From: Chthoniobacterales bacterium | GTDB lineage: Bacteria; Verrucomicrobiota; Verrucomicrobiia; Chthoniobacterales; UBA10450 | Assembly: GCA_035274845.1 (NCBI GenBank) | Contig: DATENU010000013.1 | Location: 1-64,000, forward strand | Reading direction: 5' to 3' | DNA: 64,000 nucleotides | Part shown: one piece after another, positions 27,499 through 56,795 of the stretch | Layout: each line of letters begins with the position of its first letter | Position numbering within the stretch: the first letter of the stretch is position 1 | The notes under the pieces: model-generated | The model's input: only the letters and a program-made list of their open reading frames with translations | What the model was told of the DNA's origin: nothing | Databases searched by the model: none | Program-made: the position numbers and the translations under genes

Positions 27499-29370
27499 TC
27501 AGTTAGGACTCGCCGGTGGCATGGGCGTCCCTGATGGTTTGATTGAGGCGGCGTCGGGCGAGGGCATCGTCACAATTAGTTGTGCGAGAAGCCTGTGGTC
27601 AGCGTGACTGTATAACCGAAATTCGGTGGAACCCGGCTTAATCCAGCGAGCCTCTTGGGAGCCATTAGGCGCGCTCGCGAAAAGCCTTTCGCTCCCGGAA
27701 GTGCCCGTATAGACGTCGCCTAACGTGCCGGGCCCTGCATCCCAGATGATCGTCGTTTTGCCTGTCACAGTCCCACCGGGGAGCGGATTTGGATCGGCGC
27801 GGAGGACGACCCCGGCGGACGCTGCTTCGATCAGGGCTGTCGGGGCCGAAGGCGCCTTGTCAGCATGACGGAGCCCCGGAAACTGGGTGAAGCCGCCTTT
27901 ATCGAATATTGCTTGTGCGTCGCGTCGTGAGTATGAGCCCACCAATCTGGCGTCGGGACTAAAAACAAAAACGTGATCATAGGCCAGTGAAACAAGGTCA
28001 GAGCCGTGGATCACTTGCGTCGTCAGCTTGTTCGTCTTACGAAATGTGTCTGGTAGAACTACCGTCCAGTGAGTATCGGTCCCGAGAGACTTGCGAATAT
28101 AGCCCGGCACCGCAAACGGCTGGAAGGGTATGCTCGGAGCAATGACTAATTCACGCTCACCCGGGCCCGCGATATTTTTCATTATAGGCCACGACTGCAG
28201 GTAGATCCGTTGGGCCTGCTCCTGTTTACGCAGCCAGCTCGCCATACCCTTCGAAATCGACGACGTATATTCCATCATCGTTGCCGCGCATACTGCAACA
28301 GCTCCAATTGCAGCCAGCACCAGTGGCACCCCGCGCTTCGGTATAACTGCGTCTACCAACAGAACGGGTGTGAAAAGGAAAAATGCTCCCAACCAGGCAT
28401 ATAGGTCTTCCAGGTGGTTTGGCAAGAGCGTGTGTGGAAATAGAGTGGTTACGACAAACAGCAGGGAAACAAGCCCGATCCAAAGCTCTTTCCGGCTCCT
28501 CCGCCCTACCGCTACCAAAGCGCCGATCACGAGAATAGCCGGCACAGGAAAGATGAGAAACTTTAGCAGATGGGAATAGCCAAATCCGATCGACATCGGA
28601 GACCAGTCCTGAAAATAAATATCAGTGGAAGCGTGGCGCGTATTAACGAACGGCGATCTCCCCGTGTTATAAATCAGGGAGAGCCCGCCGATGAGAACAA
28701 TCGCGATAGCGAGGGCAAAAGCAGTCTTTCTCCGTTGAGGGAAGGCCAGCGCCTGGACCAGAAAGAAGATCGCGAGCGTCGCGAAATATGTTTCCTTAAT
28801 GTAGCTCGAGAAAAGAGCCAGCGCGATGATACCAACAACATTCCAGCCCAAGCCTGACTGGAGATAGTTCTGCCAAAGGTGAAAAATAACCAGGACGCAG
28901 GACAGGCAGACGACGGCGAGTATGTCCTCCTTGACGCTCCAGTAACTCTGAGGATTAGCGAAAACGAGAACGAAAAAGAAAGTGATAGTGAAAACACTCA
29001 CCGCGCGAGACGTAAGACGCTCGACATAACGAATCAACAAAGCCGCGTTGACTAGAGTCAGGGCAAATATCGGTACGAGCATCCCTCGGGTCCCGAGTCG
29101 CCCGATCAGATCAGTGATTATGAATCCGATCGGTCTGGGGTAATACCGAATGTAACGCATTAAGCCATACCCATCCGCGCTTTCTCCCAGGATAGAAAAA
29201 TGGTCAACATGGTACGGCACAAACGGATCGAGATAACCGGGGAAGAAAAAGATCAAGAGCAGAATCCAAACAGTCGAGCCGAGTCCAAGGATCAGCAGGA
29301 AATGTCTTCTGATCGATCTGGCTTGAGGCGCACGTACGTTCGGCGCTATACTACTGAGCTCGGCGCTCAT
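27499..29370 (-). CDS. Polytopic membrane protein with C-terminal DPNP/SWDTG-type domain
   Basis: About 623 residues from the ATG at 29370; a TTG further upstream could add 12 residues. About ten hydrophobic segments precede a non-membrane region. The last ~100 residues hold an 84-residue domain (codons 27562-27813) of the form ADPNPLP..TTIIWDAG..GDVY..LFA..GSQEARWIKPGSTEFRLYS..DHRLLAQL. The same domain is found alone in two lipoproteins (29658-30089 and 33027-33464). The membrane portion resembles GT-C or O-antigen-type proteins in topology only. The function is unknown; the location beside O-acetylation genes suggests a cell-surface glycan role. Confidence 0.7.
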   Translation of the reverse strand: MSAELSSIAPNVRAPQARSIRRHFLLILGLGSTVWILLLIFFFPGYLDPFVPYHVDHFSILGESADGYGLMRYIRYYPRPIGFIITDLIGRLGTRGMLVPIFALTLVNAALLIRYVERLTSRAVSVFTITFFFVLVFANPQSYWSVKEDILAVVCLSCVLVIFHLWQNYLQSGLGWNVVGIIALALFSSYIKETYFATLAIFFLVQALAFPQRRKTAFALAIAIVLIGGLSLIYNTGRSPFVNTRHASTDIYFQDWSPMSIGFGYSHLLKFLIFPVPAILVIGALVAVGRRSRKELWIGLVSLLFVVTTLFPHTLLPNHLEDLYAWLGAFFLFTPVLLVDAVIPKRGVPLVLAAIGAVAVCAATMMEYTSSISKGMASWLRKQEQAQRIYLQSWPIMKNIAGPGERELVIAPSIPFQPFAVPGYIRKSLGTDTHWTVVLPDTFRKTNKLTTQVIHGSDLVSLAYDHVFVFSPDARLVGSYSRRDAQAIFDKGGFTQFPGLRHADKAPSAPTALIEAASAGVVLRADPNPLPGGTVTGKTTIIWDAGPGTLGDVYTGTSGSERLFASAPNGSQEARWIKPGSTEFRLYSHADHRLLAQLIVTMPSPDAASIKPSGTPMPPASPN

Positions 29371-29657
29371 CCTTTCGGCAACCTTAGCCCGCCCAGCCGG
29401 GAACAACGTGACGTCATCATAATCGAGCCAGGGGTCGGGGGGATTATTGAGGGAGACGGTAGCGGACTGTCAAGCGGTAAACAGCTAACGCGATCCATAC
29501 TCCATGAGAGCGAATCGTTAGCTGCACCTGACTCAAACAGCGCGGCTGATCTTTCGAAGACGTGGGCACTGGCGGGTTGCCAGCTGCGATGGCGCCGGCC
29601 CTCAGCGAGATCTGGCGGTTCCAGTCTTGCAGCTCCCTGCTAGACGCGATTGCACCC

Positions 29658-53735: not shown

Positions 53736-54677
53736 CTATTTGACGGTGATGACGTTGCTGACATTTCCGTCAGTCCCGTTACCGCGGAATCGATTGTTGT
53801 TGGCCGATTCGGCCGTGCCACCGCCGATGCCGGTGGTGTTGTTGAAGAAGTCGTTGTTCGTCAGGCGAATGGTGCCGCCGGCGATATTCGCGCCGGTGCC
53901 GCAGTTGGCGAACATGCTGTCCGAGACGTTGACCTGGCAGCCGGTGTTGGCGCGAACGCCGCCGTTGGCGCCCGTCACTCCGGCGAACATGGAATTGCGA
54001 ACGGTGACGAAGGCGTTGGAGGTGGTATTAACCCCGCCCGTCAGCGTGTTGAAACGGCAATTGTCGACCTGGGCGACGGCGAAACCCGCGCTGGTGGTCA
54101 CCAGCATGCCGGTGCCGACGTTATCGAAAACGCAATCCTCCACCCGCAGGCTGGTTGTGGTCGCCGCCGAGCCCTGGGTAATGCCGGTGGTAGAGACGTT
54201 CTCGAATTGGCAATGCTCGATGATCAATTGCGCGGCTTTGATGTAATTGATGCACTGGGTTGCCCCGACGGTTGGGCTCTGAATCGCGCCATTGAAGGTG
54301 AGATTGCGCAGAATCACCACCGCATCGCTAACGTGAGTGCCGCCTGTGACGTTGACGACGAATCCACTCGGAGATCCAGCAGAGAGAGTATGACCCCAGC
54401 CCGACCCTGTCCCGCCATCGACCGTGATGGCTTTGGTGATGGTGAGCGTTCCGTATCCGGCTGGATCGAGGGGATCGATTTCGCCCCCTTCCGCGGTCTT
54501 CGAGATCGCGCCGGCCCATGTTTTGCAGGGAGCGGTGCGGCTGCATGGATTGACGTCGTCGCCGACGCCGGAAACCCACGTGCGAGTGGCCTGGGCAAAG
54601 GCCCCCGTTGAAAAGCCCACAACGAGTGCGAGGCCCAAAGCTAAGCGAAGTGTTCTGGGAATTCTGGAGAAGTGCAT
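53736..54677 (-). CDS. Secreted right-handed beta-helix protein
   Basis: A 313-residue protein with a clear signal peptide (SRIPRTLRLALGLALVVGF..., cleavage near GAFA). The mature start RTWVSGVGDDVNPCSRTAPC is a conserved cysteine-bearing cap, and the remainder repeats short segments such as NLTFNG, HCQFENVS, DCVFDNVG, NCRFNTLTG and NNDFFNN at ~22-residue spacing, typical of a parallel beta-helix. Such folds often bind or cleave polysaccharides, but no catalytic residues could be picked out. It has its own promoter and terminator, so it is expressed separately from the glycan genes around it. Confidence 0.82.
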   Translation of the reverse strand: MHFSRIPRTLRLALGLALVVGFSTGAFAQATRTWVSGVGDDVNPCSRTAPCKTWAGAISKTAEGGEIDPLDPAGYGTLTITKAITVDGGTGSGWGHTLSAGSPSGFVVNVTGGTHVSDAVVILRNLTFNGAIQSPTVGATQCINYIKAAQLIIEHCQFENVSTTGITQGSAATTTSLRVEDCVFDNVGTGMLVTTSAGFAVAQVDNCRFNTLTGGVNTTSNAFVTVRNSMFAGVTGANGGVRANTGCQVNVSDSMFANCGTGANIAGGTIRLTNNDFFNNTTGIGGGTAESANNNRFRGNGTDGNVSNVITVK

Positions 54678-54996
54678 AAGTAGTTGGTGTTAAGTTTTTT
54701 TTGTTAACTGACGTTGAGCCGCCATCGTAGGGATTCTGGAGGAAAGGGTCAAGCATAAATTTGGGCGCCCGTCGTTGCCCGCGCGCCTCAGCCTGGGGAG
54801 GAATCCTCCGCGCGAAACAGTGTGAAAACGCTTCCGCCTTGCGGGATCCGTTTTTTGCCAAACCAAGCCGTTCCCGCCGTGAATCAGCGATACGAGGTTC
54901 GAGTCGCCTGGAGCGAAGCGGTGAAAAACGGCCGATCCCTTCCTTGTCGGGCAAACCGATCATTGACTCCCCTGCCTGTTGCTGAAAGACATTACC
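54678..54996. other. 319-base gap between divergent genes
   Basis: The gap separates the beta-helix gene from the broken methyltransferase. It holds the leader of the beta-helix gene (A-rich, with no clear ribosome-binding site) and its promoter at 54724-54752. The rest, 54760-54990, is GC-rich and shows no convincing gene or RNA. Confidence 0.6.
54724..54752 (-). promoter_or_regulatory. Sigma70-type promoter of the beta-helix gene
   Basis: On the minus strand, TTGACC (54747-54752) is followed after exactly 17 bases by TACGAT (54724-54729). This is close to the TTGACA-N17-TATAAT consensus. Transcription would start near 54716, giving a leader of about 40 bases rich in A residues before the ATG at 54677. 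Confidence 0.7.
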
Positions 54997-55704
54997 ATGC
55001 CGGAGACCCTCGAAGAGATTGCGAGGCGCATCTGCGCCAATGCCGACTTTACTGCCAAGCCGGTCACGTTTTATGCAATCTACGATCGATATTTCAGCGG
55101 GTTATCTGATCGGGCGATAACGCTATTAGAGCTTGGCGTTTATACAGGAGAATCGCTCAAGGTTTGGGCTTCTTATTTCCGCCATGGGACTATCATTGGG
55201 GTCGACATCGAGGAGAGCGCAGCAGATTTTTCTGGTTACCCGAACATCGTTTTTGAGCTTGGAGATCAAGCTAACCAGGATCGCTTGAGGGAAATCCTTC
55301 GTATTCATGCGGCGGATGGGGTCGACATCATCGTCGACGACGCGTCGCACATTGGACTTAACAGCCTGGCCTCTTACGAAATCCTCTTCCCGTATTTGAA
55401 GCCGGGCGGCCTTTACATCATTGAAGACTAGGGGACAGGATATTTCGACGATTGGCCGGATGGCGGTCATTTGCAGGGTTTCCGCCCCGAGTCGGTCGAT
55501 GGTCAGATTGCCAAGCGCATGCCCAGCCATGACTTCGGCATGGTTGGCTTTGTTAAGTGTCTGGTAGATCAAGTGGCTGGCGCTAACGTAAAGCCTTCCC
55601 ACGCGGCCCCCCCGACCCGCTTGGGTACCATGTCGTATCTGCACTTTTACCAGGAAATGGTAATCATTGAGAAGAAGCCCCTCTCAACGGCGGCCAGCGG
55701 TTAG
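54997..55704 (+). pseudogene. SAM-dependent methyltransferase gene interrupted by an in-frame TAG
   Basis: From the ATG at 54997 (GAAAG ribosome-binding site 7 bases upstream) the frame runs through LLELGVYTGESLKVWASYF, IIGVDIEESAADF and DIIVDDASHIG to YIIED, then hits TAG at 55429-55431. The same frame continues with GTGYFDDWPDGGH and on to the end at 55704 (235 codons in total). Family members normally read IEDWGTGYW or similar here, so TGG to TAG is the simplest explanation. It could be a true nonsense mutation, suppression, or a sequencing error. No frameshift is involved. Confidence 0.8.
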
Positions 55705-55811: not shown

Positions 55812-56795
55812 GTGCCGGCCAATTTTAGTGAATGGAAGAGAGTCTTTGTTTCCGGCGGCGCCGGCTTCATCGGGAGCCATCTGGTTCGATCATTATTGGA
55901 ACGCGATCGGACTGAACGCGTGGTTATCTTCGACAACTTTACGTCAGGCCAGCAATCGTATGTCGCGGAGGCCTGTCGGGACCCGCGGGTTGAAGTGGTT
56001 AGGGCCGACCTCAAGGAACTCGGCGCGGTGAGCGCCGCGATGGCCGGCTGTGACACGGTGTTCCATTTGGCCGCAAATCCCGATATCGCGAAGGCAGTCA
56101 CCCAGCCGGACATCGATTTCTGGGAGGGAACTTATCTCACTCAGAATGTCCTCGAGGCGATGCGAACGAACCGCGTTCGCAAGATTCTGTACACGTCCGG
56201 CAGCGGTGTGTATGGCGAAAATCCGAGCGTTGCTTTCAGGGAAGATTACGGGCCGGCGATCCCGATTTCGACCTATGGCGCGAGCAAACTCGCCTGCGAA
56301 GGGCTGATCGCATCCTATTGCCATATGTTCGAGTTAACGGGAAGGGCCTTCCGTTTTGCCAATGTGGTGGGCGGGCGTCAGACCCATGGCGTCGGGTATG
56401 ATTTTGTCCGCCGCTTGCAAGCCGACCCGGCGCGGCTACGCATCCTGGGCGACGGCACCCAACGAAAAAGCTACATCCATGTGGAGGACGTCCTCGCCGC
56501 TATTCGCCTCGCCGACGAGCACACGACCCGGTCATATGATGTCTTCAACGTAGCGACCGACGACTACATTACGGTCCGCGAGATCGCTGATCTCGCCGTT
56601 GAAGTCAGCGGAATTGCACCGGGGACAACGAGCTACGAATTCACGGGCGGCGATCGCGGCTGGAAGGGCGATGTTCCAGTGGTTCGCTTCGATTGCTCGA
56701 AAATCAAGAGCCTCGGATGGCAGGCCCGGCGAACCTCGGCCGAAGCAGTCACCGCGGCGATGAGAGCCATGCTCGAGGAACTGCGGCATGGCTGA
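55812..56795 (+). CDS. NAD-dependent epimerase/dehydratase (SDR)
   Basis: A 327-residue extended SDR starting with GTG. RVFVSGGAGFIGSHLVRSLL is the cofactor loop; VFHLAANPDIAKAVTQPD, LYTSGSGVYGEN and STYGASKLACEGL give the serine and Y-x-x-x-K. The C-terminal RILGDGTQRKSYIHVEDV is common in UDP-sugar epimerases. The substrate is unknown. The stop overlaps the GT2 gene by 8 bases. It leads the overlapping series running to 62.2 kb. Confidence 0.87.
   Translation: MPANFSEWKRVFVSGGAGFIGSHLVRSLLERDRTERVVIFDNFTSGQQSYVAEACRDPRVEVVRADLKELGAVSAAMAGCDTVFHLAANPDIAKAVTQPDIDFWEGTYLTQNVLEAMRTNRVRKILYTSGSGVYGENPSVAFREDYGPAIPISTYGASKLACEGLIASYCHMFELTGRAFRFANVVGGRQTHGVGYDFVRRLQADPARLRILGDGTQRKSYIHVEDVLAAIRLADEHTTRSYDVFNVATDDYITVREIADLAVEVSGIAPGTTSYEFTGGDRGWKGDVPVVRFDCSKIKSLGWQARRTSAEAVTAAMRAMLEELRHG

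Follow-up and report, generated by a model that had tools for sequence, protein, structure and literature searches.

Organization of the methyltransferase locus

The window analysed here, a 64,000-nucleotide stretch of DNA from a Chthoniobacterales bacterium, carries a putative methyltransferase gene whose reading frame contains an in-frame amber codon (Table 1). Translation of the frame from its ATG bore out the single TAG described in the initial annotation; this codon takes the place of residue 145, about 60% of the way along the gene. It is the only damage to the frame, further stops or frame breaks being absent. A mechanical list of open reading frames splits the gene into two parts, 54979-55431 (with a TTG start) and 55471-55704. 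Scans for promoters and terminators near the gene returned nothing usable.

Table 1. Features of the interrupted methyltransferase gene and its downstream neighbour.
Feature	Position	Strand	Remarks
5′ part of the methyltransferase frame, SAM-binding half	54997-55428	+	144 aa; Methyltransf_24
In-frame amber codon (TAG)	55429-55431	+	Tryptophan at this position in L080 and L081, the two closest homologues
3′ part, same frame, 90 codons	55432-55701	+	Homology to the C-terminal region of the closest relatives; would carry the final helix and the final two strands
Normal frame end (TAG)	55702-55704	+	From translation
NAD-dependent epimerase/dehydratase (next gene)	55812-56795	+	Detected in six of the seven genus mates

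Given the base composition of the window, the chance that 90 further codons remain free of stops is 0.038, and the chance that 234 codons contain at most one stop is 0.002. The codon usage of the 3′ part is low for coding DNA, ranking at the 9th percentile among 167 genuine 90-codon chunks from the window; it exceeds that of every one of the 334 chunks read from the same genes in shifted sense frames, and is thus compatible with coding, if weakly so. Since the in-phase antisense frame of the 3′ part scores approximately the same (0.088 vs 0.073), it is homology, not codon usage, that settles that the 3′ frame was coding.

The epimerase gene is followed on the same strand by genes for a family 2 glycosyltransferase, two methyltransferases, a GHMP kinase, a nucleotidyltransferase, a SIS-domain protein and a HAD hydrolase, which together form what we take to be an activated-heptose and glycan cluster. 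On the other side of the methyltransferase gene lies a divergent neighbour (53736-54677) encoding a 313-aa protein that, by eye, is reminiscent of a right-handed beta-helix; searched without its first residue, this protein had no Pfam match at E values up to 0.001.

The surroundings of the epimerase gene were compared among the genus mates. In all six epimerase loci a glycosyltransferase match was found downstream, with another ORF between the two in L099 and L100. No match to the methyltransferase (E 1e-3) was detected within ∼1.5 kb on either side of the epimerase in any of these six loci; a long ORF of 452-507 codons (truncated at the edge of the locus in most cases) is instead located directly upstream of the epimerase gene. 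At E 1e-10 none of the seven genus mates carries the methyltransferase, and one of them, G001, has a distant match (E 1.3e-6). The own genome, a 24-contig draft, contains a single match, the gene itself. In G173, a relative of the gene lies near FtsH-like and ABC-transporter-like genes (ORFs read by eye), and not in a glycan cluster. Given this distribution across the own genome, the genus mates and their epimerase loci, the gene looks accessory and dispensable.

Relatives of the methyltransferase

The 5′ half of the frame matched the Pfam family Methyltransf_24 (PF13578) over residues 44-144 with 30.4 bits (curated cut-off 26.3), which places it among the class I SAM methyltransferases, while the 3′ half alone gave no hit to Pfam or NCBIfam families at E values up to 1. 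Residues 25-155, including the DD and IED motifs, could be aligned with the solved structure 3ssm (E 1.4e-17), named Methyltransferase by its depositors and presumably MycE. The gene is best explained as an accessory class I SAM methyltransferase, apparently related to sugar O-methyltransferases of macrolide pathways. Among the papers listed in a literature search, none names it in its title or abstract opening.

A search of 213 genomes of the order (own included) at a threshold of E 1e-10 identified matches to the methyltransferase in 15 of them, again counting the own genome; none of the 15 other matches listed contains an internal stop. The best two outside the own genome were found in G173 (L080; query residues 25-199) and G183 (L081; 24-203). 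Their frames are intact, with no stop inside, and their identity to the window protein is about 44% and 41%, respectively. No relative above about 45% was detected, either in these genomes or in a set of 98 genomes (own included). A short-peptide scan of genome contigs pointed to two loci. Searches of viral contigs yielded no relatives; 11 phage records (matched with the first 144 residues as the query) and 19 plasmid records were all below 60%.

Twenty relatives fetched as loci (L003-L012 and L080-L089) were aligned with the window protein, leaving out the phage and plasmid matches. Across the site, L080 and L081 both read ...GGLYAIEDWGTGYLDD..., and the window reads ...GGLYIIED(stop)GTGYFDD.... 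Further downstream, DFGMVGFVKCLVDQ of the window is aligned with SYGMVGFVKELVDE of the nearest homologues, which corresponds to the block SYGMVGF[VI]KELVDE of L080 and L081. The frame thus runs on unshifted past the TAG and the family match resumes, as the initial annotation had proposed, and by homology the 3′ part is the real remainder of the methyltransferase gene. That proposal would have failed had the relatives lacked the downstream part; L080 and L081 retain it, together with the tryptophan. A frameshift or insertion at the site was also considered and rejected: the frame is not shifted and no indel occurs in the alignment at the amber codon, the gaps near the site being one of a single residue 9 residues before it and one of ten residues 12 residues after it.

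A change from TGG to TAG at a conserved tryptophan had been suggested as the simplest origin of the stop. This agrees with the two nearest homologues, but the word "conserved" is an overstatement: in the 20 aligned relatives the amber column contains W in 7, V in 4, L in 3, I in 2, S in 2, G in 1 and T in 1, and in the two solved relatives it is M and L. Tryptophan is therefore characteristic of the two closest homologues and of one further group, but not of the family.

By eye, the methyltransferase of L081 (G183:C498) is extended at its C terminus by a segment that recurs at the end of a neighbouring ORF (L102:961-2148), and the window protein encoded at 27499-29406 finishes with a similar one. 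It is possibly a C-terminal domain shared by otherwise different proteins.

For the intact pair L080-L081, dN was 0.145 and dS 1.21 over 239 codons (NG86), i.e., this pair is under purifying selection. In the columns where both carry the same residue (query residues 25-227), the window protein agrees with them at 50 of 92 positions before the stop and at 23 of 60 after it (Fisher p 0.068). The lower agreement of the 3′ part hints weakly at relaxed constraint, or may just reflect a more variable C-terminal part, and these counts are neither clear evidence of 3′ decay nor proof of constraint. Taken with the absence of further stops and frame breaks, they suggest that the stop is either a recent event or an error. 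With all relatives at or below about 45% identity, the event cannot be dated.

Amber decoding in the genome

The genome encodes release factor RF1, recognized with 457.3 bits (cut-off 423.25); two further matches to the RF1 profile (253.1 and 59.9 bits) fall under the cut-off. No PylS above the curated cut-off was found in the genome, where the sole match reached 31.6 bits against the required 178.15; the PylS profile also matched 13 of 14 control genomes, one of them above the cut-off. Among the 48 likely genes of the window, selected by us as long open frames, 15 end with TAG, 26 with TGA and 7 with TAA. The methyltransferase frame itself ends with TAG, and a suppressor would therefore extend it too.

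An amber suppressor tRNA, whose presence the initial annotation had proposed to test, was looked for at the 62 tRNA places indicated by Rfam (30 loci, 14 places inside one fetched array and 18 fetched stretches). At the normal threshold ARAGORN assigned an anticodon to 54 of them (30/30, 8/14 and 16/18, respectively), and at 80% it named five more places of the array (minus-strand calls only). None of the 59 places named in this way has a CTA anticodon, in a genome that is 95.92% complete, so that a tRNA may be missing. The other three were inspected by eye: one array place reads TCG, the weak C21:63099 reads CTT, and the weak C15:326048 was not readable.

With the threshold lowered to 60%, ARAGORN returned many chance structures per locus. 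At least two of those listed, in L022 and L070, were labelled Pyl (cta), and both were taken as chance; the call in L070 is the opposite strand of a tRNA-Leu(tag). A pattern combining the anticodon with the T-loop gave 18 matches, compared to 49 in the reversed control, i.e., no excess, and three of the 18 fall within tRNAs that ARAGORN identifies as Arg(tct), Glu(ttc) and Ser(gct). Pyrrolysine insertion or another form of suppression was rejected as a reading of the codon, given the presence of RF1, a PylS match below the cut-off, the lack of a CTA anticodon at the 59 named tRNA places and the use of TAG as an ordinary stop.

The tRNA array mentioned above (G000:C12:37541-39955; L061) comprises at least 14 tRNA-like genes (35-59 bits) on the minus strand within 2.4 kb. 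Its anticodons mostly duplicate ones present elsewhere in the genome, and relaxed ARAGORN settings named 17 tRNAs in the array, none with CTA. It resembles tRNA arrays of phages and mobile elements. A tRNA-like sequence at G000:C15:326048-326135 (L078; 36 bits) appears by eye to have an anticodon loop of ∼23 bases and received no ARAGORN call.

Predicted structure of the product

A structure was predicted for the read-through protein, with the amber codon read as tryptophan and two sequences in the alignment. The quality of the model is moderate (mean pLDDT 66.3, pTM 0.71). Five strands were placed before the stop (residues 40-46, 63-69, 84-87, 109-115 and 134-143). After it, residues 146-180 are poorly predicted and are followed by a helix (182-193) and two further strands (212-218 and 221-226). 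In blocks of 10 residues the mean pLDDT is 62-90 up to residue 140 and 30-76 after the stop, averaging 30-57 in the blocks between residues 151 and 210. According to this moderate-confidence model, the stop comes immediately after the fifth core strand; without the final helix and the final two strands, the translated product would not have the complete seven-strand fold. Loss of these elements would be expected to abolish activity.

Origin and significance of the amber codon

The three explanations offered in the initial annotation, namely inactivation, read-through and an assembly error, did not fare equally, as the first and the last still stand and read-through has become unlikely. We consider the frame most probably (with a probability of about three in four) an ordinary pseudogene created by a recent nonsense mutation. 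The main competing explanation, to which we attach a distinctly smaller though appreciable weight, is that the base results from an assembly or sequencing error, or is a minor strain allele in the consensus, and that the gene of the cell is intact. The sole lesion is one base, read in one assembly, in an otherwise intact frame, and the genome is a draft in 24 contigs with a completeness of 95.92%, all of which would fit such an error. None of the 48 chosen window genes contains an internal stop, which weakly opposes it, since these genes were picked as long open frames and the argument is nearly circular.

Production of a full-length enzyme by amber read-through or suppression would account for the 90 open codons after the stop and the preserved 3′ homology. 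It is highly improbable in a genome with RF1, a PylS match under the cut-off and no CTA at the 59 named tRNA places, in which TAG ends 15 of 48 likely genes as well as this frame; moreover, the two nearest relatives have tryptophan and not a stop at this position, so that it is not a conserved read-through site. We give just as little credence to the idea that low-level read-through maintains a small amount of full-length methyltransferase and thereby a switchable modification of a surface sugar. Less probable still is that the 144-residue product is functional by itself, or that the two halves are synthesized as separate chains that then associate. The break is located at the edge of the low-confidence stretch 146-180 of the model and a TTG start is available at 55471, but the short product would be predicted to miss two strands of the core sheet, and no internal stop is recorded for any of the other matches in the 98-genome and 213-genome searches.

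According to the preferred explanation, a recent nonsense mutation, an accessory Methyltransf_24 gene, which probably once served to modify a surface sugar, would have been inactivated by a single substitution, provided that the base is real, at a codon that specifies tryptophan in the nearest relatives. Translation would end at residue 144, immediately beyond the fifth core strand, and the rest of the frame would be undamaged because the event is recent. For annotation purposes, the frame is best listed as a probable pseudogene, without entering either half as a functional gene in its own right. It may serve as a small example of the loss of an accessory glycan-modifying gene from a polysaccharide cluster, with little import beyond annotation.

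The solved relatives 3ssm and 8ia9 (demethylmacrocin O-methyltransferase) are, like the window gene, class I SAM methyltransferases of the Methyltransf_24 family. However, only the catalytic part can be aligned: the solved chains have 419 and 397 residues, the window gene lacks the ∼180-200 residues found ahead of the aligned region in them, and, unlike them, it is interrupted by a stop. Nothing was found to set it apart from bacterial pseudogenes caused by a single nonsense mutation. As in those, a premature in-frame stop is followed by continued homology in an otherwise intact frame, the affected gene is accessory, and intact homologues are present elsewhere.
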